Notes under the pieces: generated by a model
The model's database searches: none
Seen by the model: the letters and a program-made list of their open reading frames with translations, nothing else
What the model was told of the DNA's origin: nothing
Shown here: positions 1 through 39,422 of the stretch, piece by piece
How positions within the stretch are numbered: position 1 is the stretch's first letter
Layout: each line of letters starts with the position of its first letter
DNA from: a virus
Reading direction: 5' to 3' (one strand)
IMG/VR virus record: IMGVR_UViG_3300021477_000013
Location: 1-44,023 of that record
DNA: 44,023 bases
Position numbers and translations under genes: made by a program

Positions 1-223
1 ACAGCGCCACTTTCTCCTCGGGGAGGCCGTTTTCACGGCACAGCGTGAAGAACTTGGCGTAGTCAAATCCCTCCTTTCCCTTGCACTGCTCGTTGATGAA
101 CTTCGCAAGATCGTCGTTGCCGCCGTTGGCATACTTGCCAGCGTACTTGGACGGAACGATCGACTTCGACGTCTTGGGCTCGGTTTCGGTCTCGGTTGCT
201 TCAGTCTGGTTGGCTTCACTCAT
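1..223 (-). CDS. N-terminal part of a gene crossing the window junction (QGR-family paralog 1)
   Basis: Starts at ATG 223-221 behind an AAAGGAG ribosome site. It encodes about 73 residues (begins MSEANQTEAT, acidic and Thr/Glu-rich) before running off position 1. The coding sequence continues at the right end of the window (43768-44023), because bases 5-32 equal 43996-44023. Joined, the product is about 148 residues. Its middle (VPSKY..., GFDYAKFFTL) and C-terminal half (SQGRARMTLRNMLA) align with the proteins at 5296-6084 and 9073-9621, so it is one of three paralogs. It has its own promoter at 259-287. Function unknown; a small basic/acidic DNA- or RNA-associated protein is only a guess. 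That it is one gene cut by linearisation is seen directly. Confidence 0.85.
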   Translation of the reverse strand, partial: MSEANQTEATETETEPKTSKSIVPSKYAGKYANGGNDDLAKFINEQCKGKEGFDYAKFFTLCRENGLPEEKVAL

Positions 224-9917: not shown

Positions 9918-9946
9918 TTGACAATAACCTGCGGGCGTGGTATAAT
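9918..9946 (+). promoter_or_regulatory. consensus sigma70 promoter placing the start at the HNH gene's ATG
   Basis: -35 TTGACA (9918-9923), 17-bp spacer ending TGG, -10 TATAAT (9941-9946). The ATG begins at 9952, only five bases after the -10, so the mRNA is predicted to be leaderless or nearly so. Confidence 0.85.
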
Positions 9947-9951
9947 TATCT

Positions 9952-10284
9952 ATGGCGCGCAGACATGACCCTGAATGGAAGCGAAAGTGGTGGAATGATC
10001 AGAGACACAATAATTCAAATTTTAGAAAGATGCAGTCCGTTCGTCAAATGACTAGAAGATGGATCAAGAAAGGATGGATCAAAGTCCCAGATTCATGTGA
10101 TAGATGCAATAATATAGGCCCTGTAGAGACTCATCATTTGTCGTACGATCAGCCTGATTCGAAAAGCGATGTGATGTTTTTGTGTCCTTCTTGTCACGAG
10201 TTAGAACACTACGGGCCTAAGAAACCTAGAATCCATAAGCATAGGTGGCCAAAATGGGTTCTCGGAACACCCACGGAGACTTGA
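9952..10284 (+). CDS. HNH endonuclease
   Basis: 110 residues with C49-x2-C52, H61-H62 and C78-x2-C81-H82, the zinc-bound HNH arrangement. The N-terminus is basic (RRHDPEWKRKWW). HNH proteins beside terminase genes often take part in genome packaging cleavage; other members are selfish homing nucleases. The gene is visibly more AT-rich than its neighbours, which suggests later acquisition. No ribosome site precedes the ATG and the promoter places +1 at about the ATG. The TGA stop lies in the -35 box of the next promoter (10281-10286). Confidence 0.82.
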   Translation: MARRHDPEWKRKWWNDQRHNNSNFRKMQSVRQMTRRWIKKGWIKVPDSCDRCNNIGPVETHHLSYDQPDSKSDVMFLCPSCHELEHYGPKKPRIHKHRWPKWVLGTPTET

Positions 10285-10309
10285 CACGCCCGCGCGGGCA
10301 TGCTAAAAT
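10281..10309 (+). promoter_or_regulatory. sigma70-type promoter for the packaging/head operon
   Basis: -35 TTGACA (10281-10286), 17-bp spacer ending TGC, -10 TAAAAT (10304-10309). The -35 includes the TGA of the HNH gene. Confidence 0.85.
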
Positions 10310-10338
10310 TAAGTACACTAACATTTAGGTGGCCCTTG

Positions 10339-10815
10339 GTGGAATTTCCCCAAGACCTGCAACCCATACCAACTCAGCCTTGGGATGAACGTCCAGATTC
10401 GCTCCCCCTTAATGTGGAAGAAGTGAGGACCGCCCTTTGGTTGGAGTCCGGTAGTATTCCAAAGGCCGCAATTCGGCTCAAGGTCTTGGCGTCCCGCCTC
10501 CGGCGTTTTATCAATTCGTCGCCGCGCCTGCTCGCCGAACAAAACGAAGCTCGGGAGCAATTGGCTGACAAAGCCGAGGAGAACGTCAAGGACGCGTTGT
10601 GGGATGACAAAGACGCCGCCCGTCGCGATAGCATGTCTAAATACGTGCTCTCCAGCTTGGGCAGGGGGCGCGGATACGGCCAAGGCCCCGGCAAGCAGAT
10701 AAATATTAACAGCGAGGGCGGGAACATATTGATCCAATGGGCAGATGGAACCGCCATTCAGACGCCCGAGAACGACGACGGGGTTATTATCGAGGGAGAG
10801 AAAAATGAAGCATGA
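10339..10815 (+). CDS. probable terminase small subunit
   Basis: About 158 residues. Start chosen at GTG 10339 (TTG 10336 is an alternative) after AGGTGG, because the promoter puts +1 near 10316 and an upstream ATG at 10300 would not be transcribed. An HTH-like segment (EVRTALWLESGSIPKAAIRL) is followed by a charged helical segment (LAEQNEAREQLADKAEENVK). This order is typical of small terminases that recognise the packaging site. Position directly before the large subunit supports the call. The C-terminal tail is acidic. Confidence 0.7.
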   Translation: MEFPQDLQPIPTQPWDERPDSLPLNVEEVRTALWLESGSIPKAAIRLKVLASRLRRFINSSPRLLAEQNEAREQLADKAEENVKDALWDDKDAARRDSMSKYVLSSLGRGRGYGQGPGKQININSEGGNILIQWADGTAIQTPENDDGVIIEGEKNEA

Positions 10816-11254
10816 CGCGGACGTTCTCAATTCGGCGCGGGAACTCGAAGAAGCAGACATAAAGATAGCGGATCTCACCCGCACCAATTCGCAGCTTGGA
10901 TTGGCGCTGGCGGAATCGACGCTGGAATGCGCGGCCTTGCGCGCGCAAGTGCAGGAACTGGTGGTTCAGAACGGGCGGCTGGAAACACTGCGCACACAAC
11001 ATTACAGCCAATTCGCTGCTGAGTCGCAAGCACAGGGGCTGTCCCAGCTGGGAGGGTATTACGACCACTCCCACCAATATCACCAACATGCGTTGGCTCA
11101 GCAGGCTCAAGCGCAGCAGTATCAGGCGCAAGCCCAGCAGTATTATAACCAGCTGCAACAGGGCATAATTGGGAGCCAGCTTGATTCGGGATTCGCAGGA
11201 TTGGCGCATTGCACCTGCGTCCCCGCGCGGCATGACGTATTGCGCGGCCGATAA
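10805..11254 (+). CDS. coiled-coil, Gln/Tyr/His-rich protein of unknown function
   Basis: 149 residues from ATG 10805 (GGGAGAG upstream), overlapping the preceding gene by 11 bases. Residues 5-65 form a likely coiled coil (LEEADIKIADLTRTNSQLGL and a following leucine-rich segment). Residues 70-125 are rich in Gln, Tyr, Ala and His. The TAA overlaps the terminase ATG (TAATGG). It is probably a packaging or head accessory protein, inferred from position only. Confidence 0.65.
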   Translation: MKHDADVLNSARELEEADIKIADLTRTNSQLGLALAESTLECAALRAQVQELVVQNGRLETLRTQHYSQFAAESQAQGLSQLGGYYDHSHQYHQHALAQQAQAQQYQAQAQQYYNQLQQGIIGSQLDSGFAGLAHCTCVPARHDVLRGR

Positions 11255-12591
11255 TGGACGGCGAACTACCGGATATACCTGATCCTATCGATCGTGCGGA
11301 ACCCCGTAGGGTAAATATTCCGTATGTCCCGCGAGTCCACTTTAGGCCCCTACACGCCTCCATTAAGAGGTTTCAATTCGTATGCGCCCACCGACGCGCT
11401 GGAAAAACTGTTGCAGAATATAACCACCTGTTACGGGCGAGCCTCAAGCTCAGACGAAAAGATCCGCCTCCGCGTTATGCTTATGTCGGCCCATCATTTG
11501 ATCAGACAAAGGATCTCGTCTGGGGGTATGCCAAGCATTACGCTGAACCCATCCCTAATGTCAGGTTCTATGAGGGGGACTTGATGACGGTGCTCCCGAA
11601 TGGGGCCTCAATTCGGTTATATGGCGGCTCGGCTGCTTATGAAAGGATGCGCGGCGTTTACTTCGACGGGATTGTACTCGATGAATACCCTCTGCTTAAT
11701 CCTGCTGTGTTTTCTAGCGTCGTGCGGCCATGTCTGGCTGATTATCGTGGATTCGGCATTATATCGGGGACGTCCAACGGGGACGATCACTTTCACGCAC
11801 TCCTCAAGAAAAACCAAGACAATCCAGATTGGGACATCCACATCATTCCGGTGACAAGCACCGATGCACTTTCCCCTTCTGAAGTGCAACAGATGCAGAT
11901 CGACATGTCTCCCGAGGAATACGCTCGCGAGATGCTTTGCAGCTTTGAGGCACCGATCGAAGGGTCTTATTATGCAGACACACTGAACTTGATGATGGCG
12001 GAGGGCCGAATTGATCGCGTTTCTTGGGACCTCAATGCGCCGGTGATTACTGCGTGGGACTTGGGCATTCACGACGCCATGTGCATCTGGTTTTACCAAA
12101 TTTGCGGGAGAGAAATCCACGTCATTGATTACTATCAGAGCTACGGGCAGCCTCTATCACATTACGCTGGAGTTATCAACTCTAAAAAAGTTGGCTCGTC
12201 GGGGTCGATTCGATTCCAATATAAGGCGCATTGTCTACCTCATGACGTTGAAGCGCGTGAGCTTGCAACGGGCCAATCAAGACGACAAGTTCTTAGTGAG
12301 CTTCTTGACGAGCCAGTTATTACAGCTCCGCTTGCATCTCCCGAGGACGGGATCGCTGCAGTTCGGGGAATTCTGGGAATGTCCTGGTTCAACAAGGACA
12401 CCACCGAGAAAGGAATGTCTGGCCTTCGTGCCTACAAGCGTAGCCGTCTCGGACGCCCCGTTCATGATTGGGCGTCTCATCCGGCTGACGCTTTTCGAAC
12501 GCTCGCCACCAGCTTCCACTTGGTTGCCGGATATGCCGGTTCCGCTAGACATCAAGGCCCTCTTAGGCGAAGGATAAGGGGAATAGTTTAA
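11254..12591 (+). CDS. terL: terminase large subunit
   Basis: 445 residues. The ATPase domain has Walker A HRRAGKT (46-52) and Walker B IVLDE (140-144). The RNase H-like nuclease domain begins around residue 264 with AWDLGIHDA (Asp268 a likely metal ligand) and ends with HDWASHPADAFR near residue 410. The protein pumps DNA into the prohead and cuts the concatemer. Length and motif order match phage large terminases. The start ATG overlaps the upstream stop codon. Packaging strategy (headful or cohesive) cannot be decided from sequence alone. Confidence 0.93.
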   Translation: MDGELPDIPDPIDRAEPRRVNIPYVPRVHFRPLHASIKRFQFVCAHRRAGKTVAEYNHLLRASLKLRRKDPPPRYAYVGPSFDQTKDLVWGYAKHYAEPIPNVRFYEGDLMTVLPNGASIRLYGGSAAYERMRGVYFDGIVLDEYPLLNPAVFSSVVRPCLADYRGFGIISGTSNGDDHFHALLKKNQDNPDWDIHIIPVTSTDALSPSEVQQMQIDMSPEEYAREMLCSFEAPIEGSYYADTLNLMMAEGRIDRVSWDLNAPVITAWDLGIHDAMCIWFYQICGREIHVIDYYQSYGQPLSHYAGVINSKKVGSSGSIRFQYKAHCLPHDVEARELATGQSRRQVLSELLDEPVITAPLASPEDGIAAVRGILGMSWFNKDTTEKGMSGLRAYKRSRLGRPVHDWASHPADAFRTLATSFHLVAGYAGSARHQGPLRRRIRGIV

Positions 12592-12603
12592 GGAGATCGC
12601 GCA

Positions 12604-12822
12604 ATGAGTTATGGGGAATCCGCAGTTGGCTTGTCGTTCAACCCGTCGGGCAGCGACGATGTTCACGACTGTAAGCGATTATTCGCCGAGATTATTGATG
12701 CTCTCAACGACGCCCGCTCCAGTACTTCGGACGGCGAACACAAGCGTCTTTATAGCGTCGCGATCACCGAGGCGCAGACTGCACAGATGTGGGCGGTGAA
12801 GGCTATAACCTGGAGAGGATAA
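12604..12822 (+). CDS. Acb2/Tad1-hairpin-like protein (predicted cyclic-nucleotide sponge)
   Basis: 72 residues beginning MSYGESAVGLSFNPSG, with two helices (VHDCKRLFAEIIDALNDAR; AITEAQTAQMWAVKAITW). The FNPSG start, the helical hairpin and the AQMWAVKA(I/L)TW end are those I know from small phage proteins assigned to the Acb2/Tad1 hairpin family. Acb2 proteins form compact oligomers that sequester cyclic di- and trinucleotides made by bacterial CBASS defence. ATG 12604 follows AGGAGATCGC. The stop overlaps the next start (TAATG). Assignment rests on remembered family pattern; ligand specificity cannot be read from sequence. Confidence 0.72.
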   Translation: MSYGESAVGLSFNPSGSDDVHDCKRLFAEIIDALNDARSSTSDGEHKRLYSVAITEAQTAQMWAVKAITWRG

Positions 12823-13538
12823 TGGCTACCTCGCAGAAGAACCCCGCTTGGCTCGACGCGCTGTTGGCGCAGACTTACCCCGGCAATGCCACCGATATGT
12901 CTGCTTTTCCCAACGTAATGCAGGCGCACGCGGGCGGGACGCCAACTGGACCGATTATTCCAAGATCTGGTGGTTACGCTCCGCCTGGAGGAGACCCCCG
13001 CGCAGCTGATTCGGCGATGAACATGAACACCGGAATGGCTCCAGGGTCATTGGGGAATATCCCCATTCCGGTCGGTGGGGTTCGCCATCCATATGCTCCG
13101 CCTGTTCCCAACCCTTCCAATGTTGGCGGGGCACCCTCTCCGGGTATTCCCGCCCCACAGGGCGCGAACCGCACCGCGAATAACCCGCCGATGAACCCCA
13201 ACTTCGGCACCGTCCAATATCAAACCCCTAATTCGGTGGGCGGTCGCGCTCCCATTTACACAGCTGCCAACCTCGGCAGCATGTTCGGAGGCAGTCCGCA
13301 ACAAACCCCGACGGGGCATCCGTCCGCAACGCCGCCCGCAGGCGCTCTCTCGGGTGGATTCGACGTGGGCAAAATGTTCCAGAACCTCCCCAACAATACC
13401 TTCGATGGTTCCACGGATACTTCCGGGGTCGCCCCGTGGAACATGGGGCTGTATCAGCAGAAGGTGATGGGGAGCGGCCAGCAGACGGGTCCCAATAGAC
13501 CGAGCAGCGGCGTTGATCCTTCGTTATGGGGTTACTAA
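12822..13538 (+). CDS. Pro/Gly/Asn-rich disordered protein before the portal
   Basis: 238 residues starting MATSQKNPAWLDALL at ATG 12822 (TGGAGAGG upstream, overlapping the Acb2-like stop). After a short amphipathic N-terminus the rest is low-complexity Pro, Gly, Asn and Thr, with no hydrophobic core, so it is probably disordered. The position between terminase and portal suggests a head-associated or assembly role. No recognised family. Confidence 0.65.
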   Translation: MATSQKNPAWLDALLAQTYPGNATDMSAFPNVMQAHAGGTPTGPIIPRSGGYAPPGGDPRAADSAMNMNTGMAPGSLGNIPIPVGGVRHPYAPPVPNPSNVGGAPSPGIPAPQGANRTANNPPMNPNFGTVQYQTPNSVGGRAPIYTAANLGSMFGGSPQQTPTGHPSATPPAGALSGGFDVGKMFQNLPNNTFDGSTDTSGVAPWNMGLYQQKVMGSGQQTGPNRPSSGVDPSLWGY

Positions 13539-15737
13539 ATGTCTTACACGCAGCAAGCTGGCGGGGGCATGGAGCGCCTCTTCTATTCTTTTAAGGACTC
13601 CGGAACCGCCACACAATATGATCCCGCTGATCCGGAGTCGTATGCGCAATTCATCGATTCCCTCATCAACGATTGCAGGGATTACGAGAACTCTGTGCTC
13701 GCCAAATATCGCGACGAGGCGCAGAAGTTTTATTACGGAATGCTTCCGAGCATGGGGGGGCAGCCTCCTGAGGAGACTTCCAGCGTCCTTACGGACCCCA
13801 GCCTTACATTCGGCGATATTCTTGGCGGCGAATATGACACAAAGTCGCTGAACAAATCGACTTTTGTGTCCACCGATGTTCGCGACGCCGTTCTCCAGAT
13901 GCTGCCCTCTCTTGTTCGCATATTCGCTGCGTCGGAGAATGTTATAACGATTGTTCCGAGAACGCAGCAGGAGATTGCGACCGCCGAACAGGCGACAAAC
14001 TACGTAAATTATACGTTCTGGCAGGATAATCCAGGCTTTCTTATTCTATACGGTGCCTTCAAAGACGCGATGACGGTTAAGACAGGCTTCGTGAAATGGT
14101 GGACCGACGACAATGTTCAGACAGCTTATAAGACATTCGTCAACTGCAACCAAATGCAGATCCAACTTCTCCTGCAAGAGTCGCAAGGGTCGAGGGTGGT
14201 TCAAGCAGCCCCGGTGGATCAGCAGACTGGTCTCTTTCCTGAAGTGGTTATCGAGTATCAGATCAGCAAACCGGTAATTAAGGTCGCCGGGGTTCCTCCA
14301 GAGGAGATGCGCCTTGATCGATACGCGCGAAGTTTCTCTCGTTCCCGCATTATCGGGCACGAGCGTATTGTCTACATCGACGAATTGGTGTCAATGGGTT
14401 ATGACCGCGACTTATGCGCCAATTATATTCAAACGCAAGATATTCATAATTTTACAATGGAGGCCCAACTCCGCAATGAGGGTCGTGGAATGTCGACTCG
14501 TATTGGCGATGGAGTGATGTATGGAGAATGGTACATCTGGGTGGATAAGGATGGAACTGGGTCAACTCAGCTCCGATATATTTGCACGATGGGAGAGGAT
14601 CACGCAATCGTCAACGATGAGACAGCGAATCGAGCTAAGTTCGCCTGTTTTTCTGTTGATCCCATTTCTCACACTATTGTTGGCGATTCTATCGCCGATC
14701 TCACCCTCGATATCCAGCGCATCAAGACCAATATGTTCCGGGGTGTTCTTGATTCGCTAGCGGAATCGATTAACCCGAAGACCGTAGTCAACGAATTGAT
14801 GACGAATCTCGACGACGCGATGAACGATGATCTTGGGGCCATCATTCGCACGCGAGGCGATCCGAACACCGCCGTAGCCTATTCCCGTACTCCATTCGTT
14901 GGTCAGGACGCCCTTCCGGTGATCCAGATGCTCAACGAAGTGTTGCAGCGGCGGACAGGACTATCCGATGCGGCGAAGGGCCTTGATCCTAAAGCATTGC
15001 AATCGTCGACTATGATTGGCGTTGATGCAATCATTTCCGGAGCCCAAGAGCGTATCGAGTTGGTGGCGAGGGTTCTCGCGGAAACCGGCTTTAAGGATCT
15101 CTTCCAGGGTCTTTATAACGAGATATGTGAGAACCCGAACCCGCCGCGTATTCTTCGGGTCAACGGAACTTTTCAGCAATTCGATCCGAGCACCTTCGAC
15201 GCTACGATGGGCGTGGAGGTAAATCCGACCCTCGGCAAGGGCACCGACGTTACGCGGATGATGGCCCTTACACAGATTAAACAAGATCAGCAAACTCTCG
15301 TTAGTCAGATGGGCCTCAATAATCCTATCTGTGGTATTCCGGAAATGCTGAACACCGTTACTGATATGTTGGAGATGCTTAACATTAAAAATGTCAACAG
15401 GTATTTCAAGATGCCCGACCCGCAGACGCTGCAAGCGATGCAGTCTGCGCCGAAGGAACCCGATCCGATGACGGTCGCGTCCAAGGCTCAGTACGAGAAG
15501 GTTAAAGCCGACGCCGCCGCGAAGATTGGTCAGCAAGGCCTTGAAGCGCAGAAGAATAAGGCTACCGCCGAAATTCAGCAGGAGCAGCTGCTTCAGAAGA
15601 GCGGGTACGACAATAAGCGCATCGAGCTTGAGCGCCAGAAGATGGAACTCCAGAACCAGCAGGAATTGGAGAAGATGCAGATCGAGCGAGAGCGCATCGC
15701 GATGGAAGCTGCTAAGCCCCAAGGTGGGGGTAAATAA
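13539..15737 (+). CDS. portal protein (P22-size class)
   Basis: 732 residues, the size of P22-type portals. The first gene after the terminase block and before the scaffold-like gene, which is the usual portal position. Features include the early helical region with many acidic residues, a central core (PPEEMRLDRYARSFSRSRII near 250-270; DSIADLTLDIQRIKTNMFRG near 385-405) and a long charged coiled-coil C-terminus (from about residue 650). Portals form the dodecameric channel at the capsid vertex through which DNA is packaged and ejected. ATG 13539 follows the stop of the previous gene directly; the TAA overlaps the next ATG. Confidence 0.85.
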   Translation: MSYTQQAGGGMERLFYSFKDSGTATQYDPADPESYAQFIDSLINDCRDYENSVLAKYRDEAQKFYYGMLPSMGGQPPEETSSVLTDPSLTFGDILGGEYDTKSLNKSTFVSTDVRDAVLQMLPSLVRIFAASENVITIVPRTQQEIATAEQATNYVNYTFWQDNPGFLILYGAFKDAMTVKTGFVKWWTDDNVQTAYKTFVNCNQMQIQLLLQESQGSRVVQAAPVDQQTGLFPEVVIEYQISKPVIKVAGVPPEEMRLDRYARSFSRSRIIGHERIVYIDELVSMGYDRDLCANYIQTQDIHNFTMEAQLRNEGRGMSTRIGDGVMYGEWYIWVDKDGTGSTQLRYICTMGEDHAIVNDETANRAKFACFSVDPISHTIVGDSIADLTLDIQRIKTNMFRGVLDSLAESINPKTVVNELMTNLDDAMNDDLGAIIRTRGDPNTAVAYSRTPFVGQDALPVIQMLNEVLQRRTGLSDAAKGLDPKALQSSTMIGVDAIISGAQERIELVARVLAETGFKDLFQGLYNEICENPNPPRILRVNGTFQQFDPSTFDATMGVEVNPTLGKGTDVTRMMALTQIKQDQQTLVSQMGLNNPICGIPEMLNTVTDMLEMLNIKNVNRYFKMPDPQTLQAMQSAPKEPDPMTVASKAQYEKVKADAAAKIGQQGLEAQKNKATAEIQQEQLLQKSGYDNKRIELERQKMELQNQQELEKMQIERERIAMEAAKPQGGGK

Positions 15738-34595: not shown

Positions 34596-34927
34596 TAGTC
34601 CCTCCCGTCGATCGCCATTGCGCACAAAATGAGAGCCATATTCGCCACGTCGGCAGCTTCGAGAACTATCTCTACGGTGTTCTTTCCCTCCTCAATGGCG
34701 CTGGCTAGTTCTGTGACTTCTTCCCGAAGGTGGTTCATGTATTCGACGACCCGCCCGTGTTCCCACTTTCCCTTGTGGGAATTCTTGCGCAGCTTGTAGA
34801 TCATCGCATCGAACATGCGCCTCATATCATGTTCATACGCTCGAAGCTCCGGCGGAATCTTGATCGTCAACTTGCTCCACTCTAGGCCCATGCCCGAAGA
34901 TAAATTTGTAATTCGCTCCGAGGACAT
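34595..34927 (-). CDS. mazZ: MazZ-like nucleotide pyrophosphohydrolase (MazG/DUF550 fold)
   Basis: 110 residues by the longest frame; the domain resembles DUF550/MazG proteins. The Mg-binding acids are in EEVTE (69-73) and EAADVAN (90-96, Glu90 and Asp93), with NSHKGKW (49-55) before them. In Z-genome phages this class converts dGTP to dGMP, supplying the substrate of PurZ. It overlaps the end of purZ by 95 bases if started at ATG 34927 (AGGA upstream). Later ATGs (34891, 34825) would shorten the overlap, so the true start is uncertain. No long linker or second domain is present. Confidence 0.85.
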   Translation of the reverse strand: MSSERITNLSSGMGLEWSKLTIKIPPELRAYEHDMRRMFDAMIYKLRKNSHKGKWEHGRVVEYMNHLREEVTELASAIEEGKNTVEIVLEAADVANMALILCAMAIDGRD

Positions 34928-35888
34928 CTCTAGTATTCCTGTGCTTTTTGTAAAAGTCCAGTTGCTCTAGGGTATTCAGATAGTTCATGAAGTTTAAGAA
35001 TACATGCGTCGGGTCGTTCGCTGTCACCGAATCCTTGAACTGGTTCCAGCTGAACGTAGCGACGCGGCGCACCCGCTTGGTTACGGTTGTATATTCGGTG
35101 GGAACGCCTACCGTATCCCAGTCGGTTTCATATTGATCAGTGTACCAATCCCCACTGCTGAACCCATCGGCATTTCCTACCCGGATGGGGTAGGTCCGGA
35201 AACACAGATAGCCCCTTTTGTAGTATGTCGGCGGGAGACGGGCGTCAGCCATTCCCTGCATGAACGTACATTCGCGGCTGGTTACGTGTGGATAAAATTT
35301 GGCCTCGTTTAATCCCAACGAGAACCCTTGAGAAATCTCCATAAAATACGGGTGATATTCCAGGTCGACAATATTCTCATAGTAAGGAAATAACCGATGG
35401 GAGTGATTGTAATAAATGGCAGAAGGATCACGGCGAACCTTTCTAGAAATTGCCGCGCCGGTTCCTGAACGTGTTCCAGCAACAGCGAATATACTGCCAG
35501 AGGTATCATTCTCTGTCACCCTATCCTTTTCGAGGATTACCGTCGCGCAGGGATGAATGAATATAGGGATGTCCGGAAATTCTAAGTGTTCCTTGATCAG
35601 CAATTCGGCGTCGATAGTTGCCCCTGCCGAAAAGTATACCGGAATGGTATGGCCTCGCAGATGCATGTGAACCGCGAAGGTGGGCAGTTGTTTTAGAACG
35701 ATCTTAGTTTCCCTGAAATAACTGGTGTGTCCGCTATTCGGCCCCGCGCTTGTGATGCAGCCGTTGAATGGGATTACTTCTATAATAGCGCGCTTGGCGA
35801 GCCAAGAAGCGATCAGCCCCTTCCCCTCTGAACCATATTGGCCTCCGGCGAGGATATGGAGGCCAGTGTCAGTGAATAGAGTGCTCAC
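34833..35888 (-). CDS. purZ: PurZ, 2-amino-deoxyadenylosuccinate synthetase
   Basis: 351 residues, homologous to adenylosuccinate synthetases. The P-loop-like start GGQYGSEGKG (15-24) has Ser20 where host PurA has the catalytic Asp (GDEGKGK); this replacement marks PurZ. GPNSGHT (49-55) and the GTRSGTGAA segment (138-146) are further family motifs, with RTYPIRVGN and ETDWDTVGVPTEYTTVTKR later in the sequence. PurZ joins dGMP and aspartate (ATP-driven) to give 2-amino-deoxyadenylosuccinate; host enzymes finish dZTP. ATG 35888 overlaps the preceding stop. Confidence 0.93.
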   Translation of the reverse strand: MSTLFTDTGLHILAGGQYGSEGKGLIASWLAKRAIIEVIPFNGCITSAGPNSGHTSYFRETKIVLKQLPTFAVHMHLRGHTIPVYFSAGATIDAELLIKEHLEFPDIPIFIHPCATVILEKDRVTENDTSGSIFAVAGTRSGTGAAISRKVRRDPSAIYYNHSHRLFPYYENIVDLEYHPYFMEISQGFSLGLNEAKFYPHVTSRECTFMQGMADARLPPTYYKRGYLCFRTYPIRVGNADGFSSGDWYTDQYETDWDTVGVPTEYTTVTKRVRRVATFSWNQFKDSVTANDPTHVFLNFMNYLNTLEQLDFYKKHRNTRDVLGANYKFIFGHGPRVEQVDDQDSAGASSV

Positions 35889-37301: not shown

Positions 37302-37570
37302 CTATCTTTTGCGCCTCGTACCAACCCAATCATATTTATAGCATGAACTACGTCGATGTCGCCTGCGATGTCTTCCATCTCTTTATCGCTAGGATTACGC
37401 AATTTATCGCCATCATATATTGCGACATGTGAACAATAGAAGCATATTGCCACATCCCCATCCTCCGGAGGGCGGCTCTTTGCGTTGGTTACGTCCATCG
37501 CCGCACTCATGGATTTATTGCAATTAGGGCAGAAACACTCAGGTCTTCTGAACGCTTCGATTCTAGCCAT
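37298..37570 (-). CDS. small zinc-ribbon protein downstream of the polymerase
   Basis: 90 residues from ATG 37570-37568 (GGAGGC upstream). CPNC near residue 14 and CFYC near 43 give a zinc ribbon; the C-terminal segment is helical (DIDVVHAINMIGLVRGAKD). It overlaps the polymerase stop by eight bases, and its TGA lies in the next promoter's -35. Unknown function. Confidence 0.65.
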   Translation of the reverse strand: MARIEAFRRPECFCPNCNKSMSAAMDVTNAKSRPPEDGDVAICFYCSHVAIYDGDKLRNPSDKEMEDIAGDIDVVHAINMIGLVRGAKDS

Positions 37571-39335
37571 AGGAAGCCTCCGCCCAATTAGTTCCAGTTC
37601 CGACCTCATAAGGAATAGGTAGACCGAGTTTAAATTCATCCGGGACCGCCTCGCAGACTTTTATCAATTCGGTGGTGTCGAATCCGATCTCGCGCTGCCA
37701 AATCAACGAATCGTGGATGGTCATTAGTAACTGTACCTGCGGATGAGCTTCCTCGTATTCGGAGGCGCGCAGGAGAGTTGTCTTCATCAAGTCGCCGCCG
37801 GAATTCTGTATGATTCGGCTCACCGCTCGATAAGCGTATGCTTTATCCTCTAGACGAGCCTTGCGGCCAGTGATCGACCTGACGTAGCCGCTCGATAAGA
37901 ATATGCCCTTCGCTTCTTTTTGGAACTTGAGAATGGCGGGGAATTGACCTTTCAGCCACGCCTGATGATAGTTCAACGCTCGATTGTAGTCCCAACCCAT
38001 ATGACCTGCCAACGCTTTAGCTGACATGCCTGTTAGGATTCCCATGGCCATTCGTTTAGCGATATCTCGGTGCAATCCCAGACCAGCGGAAGTGATGTCG
38101 TGGATGTCCATAGTTCCGGAGCGGTATCCCTGAAGTAATCGCTCATCTTCTGAGAAATATGCAAACAATCTAGGCTCTTGCTGTTTGGCGTCGCCTTCCT
38201 GAATCTCGAAACCGTCATCAGCAATGATGAGTCTTCTGACGGTTTTCCCGACTTCTTTATTTCGTTTTGGGAACGCTTGAAGATTCGGCTCAGAACAGCT
38301 AAATCGCGCTCCGATTGCACCGTAGTCGTCAGATTTAGATTGATTGAGTACAGGATGAACTCGTCCCTTAACATTATGCGTCTCCACAAGCGGCGTGACG
38401 AACGAATCCCGAGCTTTTTTCATCTGCCTTATGCCGATAATTCTTTCGCCAATTTCGTTATTTTTCAGCCATCCTTCGGTGAAGGATACGGCCCCATTCT
38501 GGGTGCGTGCGAAGTCATCGTCCCCGAACCCCTCACGACGATAAAGACTCTCAACGTCTTTCGGTGAGTTGGTATTGAAACCATATGGAAACGTCGATTG
38601 GATCGCGGCAATTTTGGTCTCGATGATTCCGTTCGGTCCTCTGAGTTGTTGACCATATTCGCCATCCACTTTCATCCCGCGTCGATGGAGACGCGCCACT
38701 CGATGAATTAGCTGACATTCCAGCTTCCAAGGAGTCCTCAATTCGTGTTCGTCTAGCAGCTTCTGCTGCGCCTCCCACAGCTCTAAAGTGGATATCCCGT
38801 CACCCGTAGCGTAATCCACAACGTCAGGATGATCGCCAGCCATCTTGTAAAAGTTAGCCATTGTCTTGCGGTTTGGCATACCGCCAAATTTCGCCGCGAT
38901 TGCCCGATAAAGAGCATCGCCAAGCTTAGCAGTAACACCATGGCGTTGGCTACAATCATCGAGTCCATACCCAGAAGTGACATCGCTGATAAGCCCCTCA
39001 TTTATCATGGTATCTTCCAAGGGGTACTCCGGAAATACGCCGTGTTTTCCCGCCATGCGCAGGTCGAAACCCAGAGCGTGACCGACCGTAAGGAAGCCGC
39101 GCCGAGCGCGAGTCTTGAATGCGAGACCCAAAACTCTCTCGAACTCCCCTGAATGAAGTATGTTTCCTCCACCAACATGGCCGGTGGGAACGTAGACGCT
39201 CGCATAGCGGTCTGTAAACACCCAACCCACAACAGTATCATGAATTGTCAATCCCGTTGTTTCTGTATCGAACGCCATCACAGAAGAGTGTTGCACCATA
39301 TCGATGGCGCGTTGCGGATCAATTCCCTGATACAT
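37563..39335 (-). CDS. family A DNA polymerase with 3'-5' exonuclease (DpoZ candidate)
   Basis: 590 residues from ATG 39335-39333 (GGAGACTAAA). Exonuclease motifs: FDTET (22-26), GHALGFD (85-91) and YATGD (175-179). Polymerase motifs: A with Asp382 (EGDAKQQEPR), B from Arg423 and Lys427, C with His541-Asp542. Unusual residues: relative to E. coli Pol I, the O-helix Phe762 is Met431 and Tyr766 is Thr435, and the Glu after the motif C Asp is Ser543. In Z-genome phages a proofreading family A polymerase (DpoZ) favours Z over A. Co-occurrence with purZ and mazZ supports that, but the substrate preference is inferred. Confidence 0.85.
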   Translation of the reverse strand: MYQGIDPQRAIDMVQHSSVMAFDTETTGLTIHDTVVGWVFTDRYASVYVPTGHVGGGNILHSGEFERVLGLAFKTRARRGFLTVGHALGFDLRMAGKHGVFPEYPLEDTMINEGLISDVTSGYGLDDCSQRHGVTAKLGDALYRAIAAKFGGMPNRKTMANFYKMAGDHPDVVDYATGDGISTLELWEAQQKLLDEHELRTPWKLECQLIHRVARLHRRGMKVDGEYGQQLRGPNGIIETKIAAIQSTFPYGFNTNSPKDVESLYRREGFGDDDFARTQNGAVSFTEGWLKNNEIGERIIGIRQMKKARDSFVTPLVETHNVKGRVHPVLNQSKSDDYGAIGARFSCSEPNLQAFPKRNKEVGKTVRRLIIADDGFEIQEGDAKQQEPRLFAYFSEDERLLQGYRSGTMDIHDITSAGLGLHRDIAKRMAMGILTGMSAKALAGHMGWDYNRALNYHQAWLKGQFPAILKFQKEAKGIFLSSGYVRSITGRKARLEDKAYAYRAVSRIIQNSGGDLMKTTLLRASEYEEAHPQVQLLMTIHDSLIWQREIGFDTTELIKVCEAVPDEFKLGLPIPYEVGTGTNWAEASYG

Positions 39336-39348
39336 TTTAGTCTCCGAG

Positions 39349-39391
39349 AAGCGGGCGGGGCCGAAGAACCACCAACAGAACCCCGCCCTTC
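39349..39391 (-). terminator. GC-rich hairpin just upstream of the polymerase start
   Basis: GGGCGGGG (39353-39360) pairs with CCCCGCCC (39381-39388), with partly matching flanks, 14 bases before the polymerase ATG. It may be an attenuator or terminator between the upstream gene and the polymerase; no T-tract is evident. Confidence 0.5.
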
Positions 39392-39422
39392 TAGCTACCA
39401 ACGTGATCTACGATTTACGGCG

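Follow-up and report, generated by a model that had tools for sequence, protein, structure and literature searches.

We identified, in a 44,023-nucleotide stretch of viral DNA (positions 1 to 44,023 of IMG/VR record IMGVR_UViG_3300021477_000013, the whole of which we call the window), a small gene of the packaging operon that very probably encodes an Acb2-type sponge, a hexamer that would take up cyclic oligonucleotide signals of host immunity. Its product belongs to the Acb2 hairpin family, is predicted to share the family fold and conserves the residues that correspond to assembly and phosphate positions of phage T4 Acb2 (Vs.4), and the gene is under purifying selection and behaves as a cassette. 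The family, fold and role of Acb2 are already known, and the branch represented in the window is a new addition to it.

In the mechanism that we propose, six helical hairpins would assemble through A53, A60 and A64, small residues of helix 2, and through I30 on the hydrophobic side of helix 1, and the assembly would bind cyclic oligonucleotide alarm signals made by a CBASS (or related signalling) system of the host, with the invariant K24 and K66 holding the phosphates of the signal. Sequestration of the signal would keep the suicide effector off. A strong promoter of the host type would drive the gene along with the rest of the packaging operon. The gene, in this reading an accessory counter-defence one, is gained, lost and swapped as a single cassette at the terL-portal junction.

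The acb2-like gene

The reading frame extends from an ATG at 12604 to a TAA at 12820-12822, encoding 72 amino acids, and its stop codon overlaps the ATG of the following gene (TAATG). An earlier note, made from the sequence alone, had placed a 72-residue protein at 12604-12822, and this clean ATG-to-TAA frame with its AAGGAG (Table 1) confirms it. The protein has the N-terminus MSYGESAVGLSFNPSG. Of the two motifs that the note had singled out, AQMWAVKAITW does lie near the end (residues 60-70, followed by RG), but FNPSG, described as the start, occupies residues 12-16. The frame stands far above chance, since 220 of 248 pattern-matched stretches in a scan of viral contigs encode a relative of its product, 50 of 50 relatives' records tested (from 80 kept loci) passed the Pfam cut-off, and the gene is under purifying selection (pN 0.11, pS 0.49, window compared with the related locus L096).

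Table 1. Positions of the acb2-like gene, its neighbours and other features of the window
Feature	Position	Strand	Basis
Promoter-like TTGACA-17-TATAAT, extended -10, 12 of 12, before HNH gene	9918..9946	+	consensus match only
Promoter-like TTGACA-17-TAAAAT, extended -10 (TGC), heads packaging operon	10281..10309	+	consensus match only
Presumed small terminase subunit (terS)	10300..10815	+	position only; before terL in relatives too
terL, left flank of cassette	11254..12591	+	phrog_2, 4.4e-24
Ribosome-binding site AAGGAG of acb2-like gene	12590..12595	+	sequence reading; 8 nt before ATG
acb2-like gene, 72 aa	12604..12822	+	PF24729, phrog_717, AlphaFold2 model
238-aa Pro/Gly/Asn-rich ORF, right flank	12822..13538	+	no PHROG match; relative in same place in 10/12 related loci
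Portal protein gene	13539..15737	+	phrog_1216, 8.2e-114
PurZ-like protein	34836-35888	-	NF038379, 5.3e-58, 196.6 bits vs cut-off 300
DpoZ-like protein	37566-39401	-	NF038380, 1.1e-72, 245.3 bits vs cut-off 500

Membership of the Acb2 family

The earlier note had called the protein Acb2/Tad1-like, and a search with the Pfam model PF24729 ('Acb2/Tad1, hairpin domain') gave a match of 1.4e-10, well above the curated cut-off (41.6 against 27 bits), with T4 Vs.4 scoring 71.4 bits as a control on the same model. Half of what the note had set as a refutation, the absence of a match to this family, is thereby not borne out. A second match was to the C-terminal end of the phrog_717 profile (2.5e-7); PHROG 717 is the family that holds the T4 Vs.4 homologues, according to the accessible part of Jenson et al. 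2023 (PMC10097602), the only paper that our literature search on PHROG 717 returned. The Acb2 half of the name stands and the Tad1 half does not. Tad1 (Thoeris anti-defence 1) has the hairpin domain in common, by the name of the Pfam family, and carries an N-terminal beta-sheet part in the accessible text of a review; the window protein, at 72 amino acids, is too short for such a domain, we could not find a beta strand in its model, and Tad1 proper was rejected on these grounds.

Searches with single sequences were less informative. We could not find a sponge with phmmer using the single protein against PDB sequences, nor a match in PADLOC, and NCBIfam returned only a pectinesterase-inhibitor match below its cut-off; the pectin methylesterase inhibitor-like family PF04043 was rejected as a candidate at 18.1 bits against a cut-off of 29. 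The relatives in phages Aaphi23, PS3 and elemo, searched singly against PDB sequences, gave nothing useful, with Vs.4 at E 0.38 for elemo only.

The 80 loci kept from the viral contig scan encode proteins approximately 60-100% identical, with the common motifs YGEKAVGLxFNPS and AITEAQTAQMWAVKAITW, and 20 columns are invariant among 57 sequences. A scan of genomes identified relatives in 34 of 86 matched stretches, from Dyadobacter, Polaromonas, Avibacterium, Novosphingobium and others. We additionally identified a large sister branch of the same hairpin kind (L218-L297), with the consensus FNPSxxxxVDxIK...AAMWAVKAAT and a relative in 162 of 164 matched stretches. Avibacterium paragallinarum NCTC11296 contains five copies of a relative (L306, L307, L309, L310 and L311), four of them in blocks of 2.9-5.0 kb that are 99.1-99.9% identical to L306, suggesting a multi-copy prophage.

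From viral loci we derived four branch profiles: W (the window branch, n=65, including three phage records), G (that of the gene at locus L101, n=54), P (PaP2 Acb2, n=67) and T (T4 Vs.4, n=31). Using hhalign, W was linked to G at 99.7%, G to P at 95.6% (E 1.2e-8, 56 columns) and W to P at 94.3% (E 9.8e-8, 27 columns), and T was linked to P at 97.6% and to G at 67.8%, whereas the direct link between W and T was weak (12.9%); thus, the window branch joins the experimentally tested Acb2 proteins via G and P. Against single proteins, branch W aligned with Vs.4 at 45.0% over 44 columns and with PaP2 p26 at 8.1% over 27. Searched against PDB sequences, the profile of W placed Vs.4 third (E 0.48) after two designed proteins, and we could not find a solved member of the window branch among these sequences.

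Functional residues

In the accessible part of Jenson et al. 2023 (PMC10097602), Vs.4 is a hexamer with three cGAMP, with a Kd of about 30 nM. Stacking is attributed to Y8 and F82, and hydrogen bonds or salt bridges to Y8, H11, K23 and R79, while mutation of S74 disturbs cGAMP and L29, A66, A73 and A77 are listed as hexamer residues; the contacts of K23 and R79 go to phosphates in our own reading of the contact list available to us. The corresponding positions are kept in branch W: K24 and K66 (Vs.4 K23 and R79) are basic in 65/65 sequences each, I30 (L29) is hydrophobic in 65/65, and A53, A60 and A64 (A66, A73 and A77) are small in 65/65, 65/65 and 64/65, respectively. At the milder position F33 of Vs.4, 53/65 sequences are hydrophobic.

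The register used here, that from the sequence and structure alignments, keeps these six Vs.4 positions best of 255 register pairs, with a mean of 0.997, the second best reaching 0.903. When column conservation was correlated with that of PaP2 and T4 Acb2, shift 0 gave 0.50 and 0.48, and other shifts reached up to 0.61 and 0.53; it is therefore the functional-residue test, and not the conservation correlation, that singles out this register.

The ligand contacts F82 and S74 of Vs.4, which correspond to T69 and Q61 in the window protein, are kept in 0/65 sequences each, so that the window protein may prefer another ligand than Vs.4 does. PaP2 Acb2 is also without both, with A88 and M80 in their place, and they are thus not family-defining. 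The window residues R48, T55 and Q58 align with PaP2 R67, T74 and Q77, which are conserved in 0.91, 0.85 and 0.93 of branch P; at the same positions of the T4 branch the first two are variable and the third is a conserved lysine (0.97). We infer that R48, T55 and Q58 might form a second ligand site. F12, invariant in 65/65 sequences of branch W, may be the counterpart of Vs.4 Y8 and of PaP2 Y11 (itself equated with Y8 in the alignment of Vs.4 and PaP2), a candidate assignment as the loop is shorter and the alignments leave the register loose there.

Predicted fold

The AlphaFold2 model of the protein (pLDDT 95.9) contains helices at residues 3-8, 18-40 and 44-68, which is the layout of an Acb2 protomer, one short N-terminal helix and two long antiparallel helices, as given in the accessible text of reviews. 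The branch G model (pLDDT 93.3) folds in the same way. Foldseek identified no PDB match with E <= 0.001 for the window model, and in BFVD it identified two 'Acb2/Tad1 hairpin' proteins, at E 1.5e-4 and 4.8e-4. The first of these, A0A411AWH0 of Providencia phage PS3 ('Acb2/Tad1 hairpin domain-containing'; TM 0.82, 44% identity over 71 columns), is closely related to the window branch, and so adds no independent support.

We ran VIA-align on the top 181 chains from Foldseek. The window model aligned with Vs.4 (7uq2_A) at Z 7.5 (rmsd 2.5, 60 residues), a score equalled by unrelated helical entries, and with Acb2 8h2x_F at Z 5.7 (rmsd 3.0, 59 residues), within the range of unrelated helical bundles. 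The end points of these alignments, which place window residues 13..72 on Vs.4 12..85 and on Acb2 15..91, imply offsets for the two long helices, 1 and 2, identical to those of the sequence alignment.

Position in the packaging operon and cassette behaviour

The gene was said to lie between terL and a head gene, which holds for the portal gene, with the qualification that one ORF without a PHROG match, the 238-aa ORF, intervenes. This ORF is fast-evolving, with 57.8% identity to L096 where terL has 88.2%. The presumed terS matched nothing in PHROG or Pfam.

A scan with the window terL gave 12 related loci. In nine of them (L091, L002, L092, L093, L094, L096, L097, L098 and L099) the acb2-like gene is located between terL and the 238-aa ORF; three of these (L091, L002 and L099) are nearly identical to the window, and a single acb2 allele is found in L092 to L094. 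The gene is absent from L095 and L100, and L101 has a 41%-identical copy placed between terS and terL. Ochrobactrum phage OH orders its terL, portal and capsid genes in this way too and carries no acb2 at that place; it is missing from the 158 phage records that gave a hit at E 0.01. That the gene is inserted in the packaging operon, as the earlier note held, is borne out by an empty and an occupied site: L095 and L096 share 96.4% identity over 2.4 kb on one flank and 97.0% over 4.4 kb on the other, and the junction differs by exactly acb2. The cassette edges share ATGGCT (L096:6320-6607 compared with L095:2917), a short homology through which the gene may have been lost or gained.

We additionally identified exchange of alleles. 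The window terL is about equally distant from L096 (88.2%) and L092 (89.1%), whereas the acb2 genes are 84.7% and 59.7% identical, and the L092 allele falls together with the L064 and L065 alleles (support 100/99), which come from loci without a match to the window terL or portal (the L064 locus being only 4.2 kb), indicating that alleles have been exchanged. A single clade for the five alleles of the lineage was borderline rejected (AU p 0.045, 72 columns); it is the grouping of L092 with L064 and L065 on which the argument rests. Presence, absence, swap and relocation together look like the behaviour of an accessory counter-defence gene. These counts are not population frequencies, since similarity guided the choice of loci, near-duplicates are numerous, and L095 and L096 are metagenome contigs.

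Beyond this lineage the gene appears mostly not to be tied to packaging. By our reading, a relative is <= 1.5 kb from terL in 6/23 records with a terL match, a count from a search in which 27/50 records gave no terL match and which missed the terL beside the gene in at least two of these, the L001 and L004 records. The upstream neighbour matches phrog_2 (terL) in 6/54 cases, the window lineage included, and in some further cases a family of exonucleases, SSB, ribonucleotide reductases or integrases. In EcP1 and elemo the relative lies among small genes, and in Providencia phage PS3 between internal virion protein genes, in each case away from terminase genes; in phage DSL-LC05 it is again between terL and portal, and Pmp11 and Aaphi23 have it directly upstream of terS.

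Promoter-like sites and expression

The earlier note had expected expression with the late operon, barring earlier read-through. The gene does lie in the packaging operon, but a near-consensus, putative sigma70-type promoter before terS heads it (Table 1), so expression need not be late, and host RNA polymerase could transcribe acb2 early. In 300 resampled sequences, sites with >= 11 of 12 matches occurred at a rate of 0.03 per strand and 5.7 kb. Of the 11 related loci scanned, several of them near-duplicates, nine have a 10- or 11-of-12 site at most about 165 nt before the start of the presumed terS, and no such site was found upstream of the presumed terS in L097 and L098. We could not find a terminator-like site on the + strand between 10309 and 12604.

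Alternative readings

A sponge of the same build might have as its main ligand not a CBASS cyclic dinucleotide but a cyclic trinucleotide or an NAD-derived signal; this overlaps our main reading, and we regard it as a real possibility, though less likely than not. The replacement of F82 and S74 in 65/65 relatives while the phosphate and assembly residues stay points this way, as do R48, T55 and Q58, which follow the conserved PaP2 residues and not the T4 branch. The signal bound by Tad1 is NAD-derived, and Tad1 is listed weakly for branch G, both by its model in VIA (Z 3.8-4.7, with no Acb2 chain among the 50 entries listed, 89 chains having been aligned) and by its profile against PDB sequences (E 0.75-0.9, behind Vs.4 at 0.0083). 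However, these Tad1 matches are not significant and the extra domain of Tad1 is absent, and PaP2 Acb2, which lacks F82 and S74 too, is of a type reported to bind cGAMP in the accessible text of reviews. More tentatively still, we suggest that the window branch may have kept the Acb2 hexamer and phosphate grip, re-tooled its base pocket (the YGEKAVGLxFNPS N-terminus, with T69/W70 and Q61 where Vs.4 has F82 and S74) to sequester other immune signals, and been exchanged allele by allele, one gene at a time, at the terL-portal junction in a lineage with, at least in the window phage, PurZ- and DpoZ-like genes.

A small structural or packaging helper, that is a terminase or portal accessory merely sharing the hairpin fold, would account for the position between terL and portal in 9/12 related loci (several near-duplicates) and in DSL-LC05, and for adjacency to terS in Pmp11 and Aaphi23. 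Such a helper should hardly be considered probable, and was rejected on the cassette behaviour: the gene is cleanly absent from L095, its flanks 96-97% identical to those of L096, as well as from L100 and phage OH, is not near the terminase genes of EcP1, PS3 or elemo, and is close to or directly behind terL in only the minority of records counted above, with the terL search incomplete. Slightly less credible again is a hairpin of unrelated function, such as an adaptor or an inhibitor of another target, matched through composition; helical hairpins are common and the Foldseek E-values against the PDB are poor, yet this would leave unexplained the curated Pfam match, the PHROG match, the profile-profile links and a register in which six Vs.4 positions defined by experiment are kept. 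An Acb2-type sponge is the reading that we prefer.

Comparison with known sponges

T4 Vs.4 (T4 Acb2; 7uq2) shares with the window protein PF24729, PHROG 717 and a hairpin of two long helices, and the class of K23/R79 and of the hexamer residues L29, A66, A73 and A77 is kept. It is longer (88 compared with 72 amino acids) and 17% identical over 60 aligned residues, the hairpin turn of the window protein is shorter, and F82 and S74 are not kept there. Its gene is found among small genes of the tk-vs region, and that of the window in the packaging operon. Acb2 of the PaP2/PaMx33 type (p26; 8h2x, 8h2j) is linked to the window branch by hhalign, and PaP2 K26, R67, T74, Q77, M81 and R85 match window K24, R48, T55, Q58, M62 and K66. 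The two are nonetheless only 20% identical over 59 aligned residues, and differ in their N-terminal motif, GYRDLS in PaP2-type Acb2 and YGEKAVGLxFNPS in the window branch. The PaP2 gene is encoded on the opposite strand and closes the block that contains the virion genes.

With the window gene, the Acb2 sponges gain a large further branch, and a probable counter-defence gene is seen to be carried in a packaging operon. If the branch binds other signals, it would point to host immune signals beyond those covered by known sponges. L095 and L096 are a clean natural pair of contigs without and with the gene, and so allow a direct test of its role. Our literature searches on Acb2 with terminase and portal, or on 'Acb2 homologs', returned only reviews; PDB chain 9ptq (E 1.0 with branch G) bears the name 'Acb2 homolog 43', which suggests a survey of Acb2 homologs by others.

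Candidate aminoadenine genes

The earlier note had coupled the sponge with Z-DNA as two layers of defence evasion, and we found nothing in the literature on 2-aminoadenine with PurZ and CBASS together. PurZ- and DpoZ-like genes are indeed present in the window (Table 1); as both score under their NCBIfam cut-offs, the window phage is only a plausible candidate for an aminoadenine (Z) genome.
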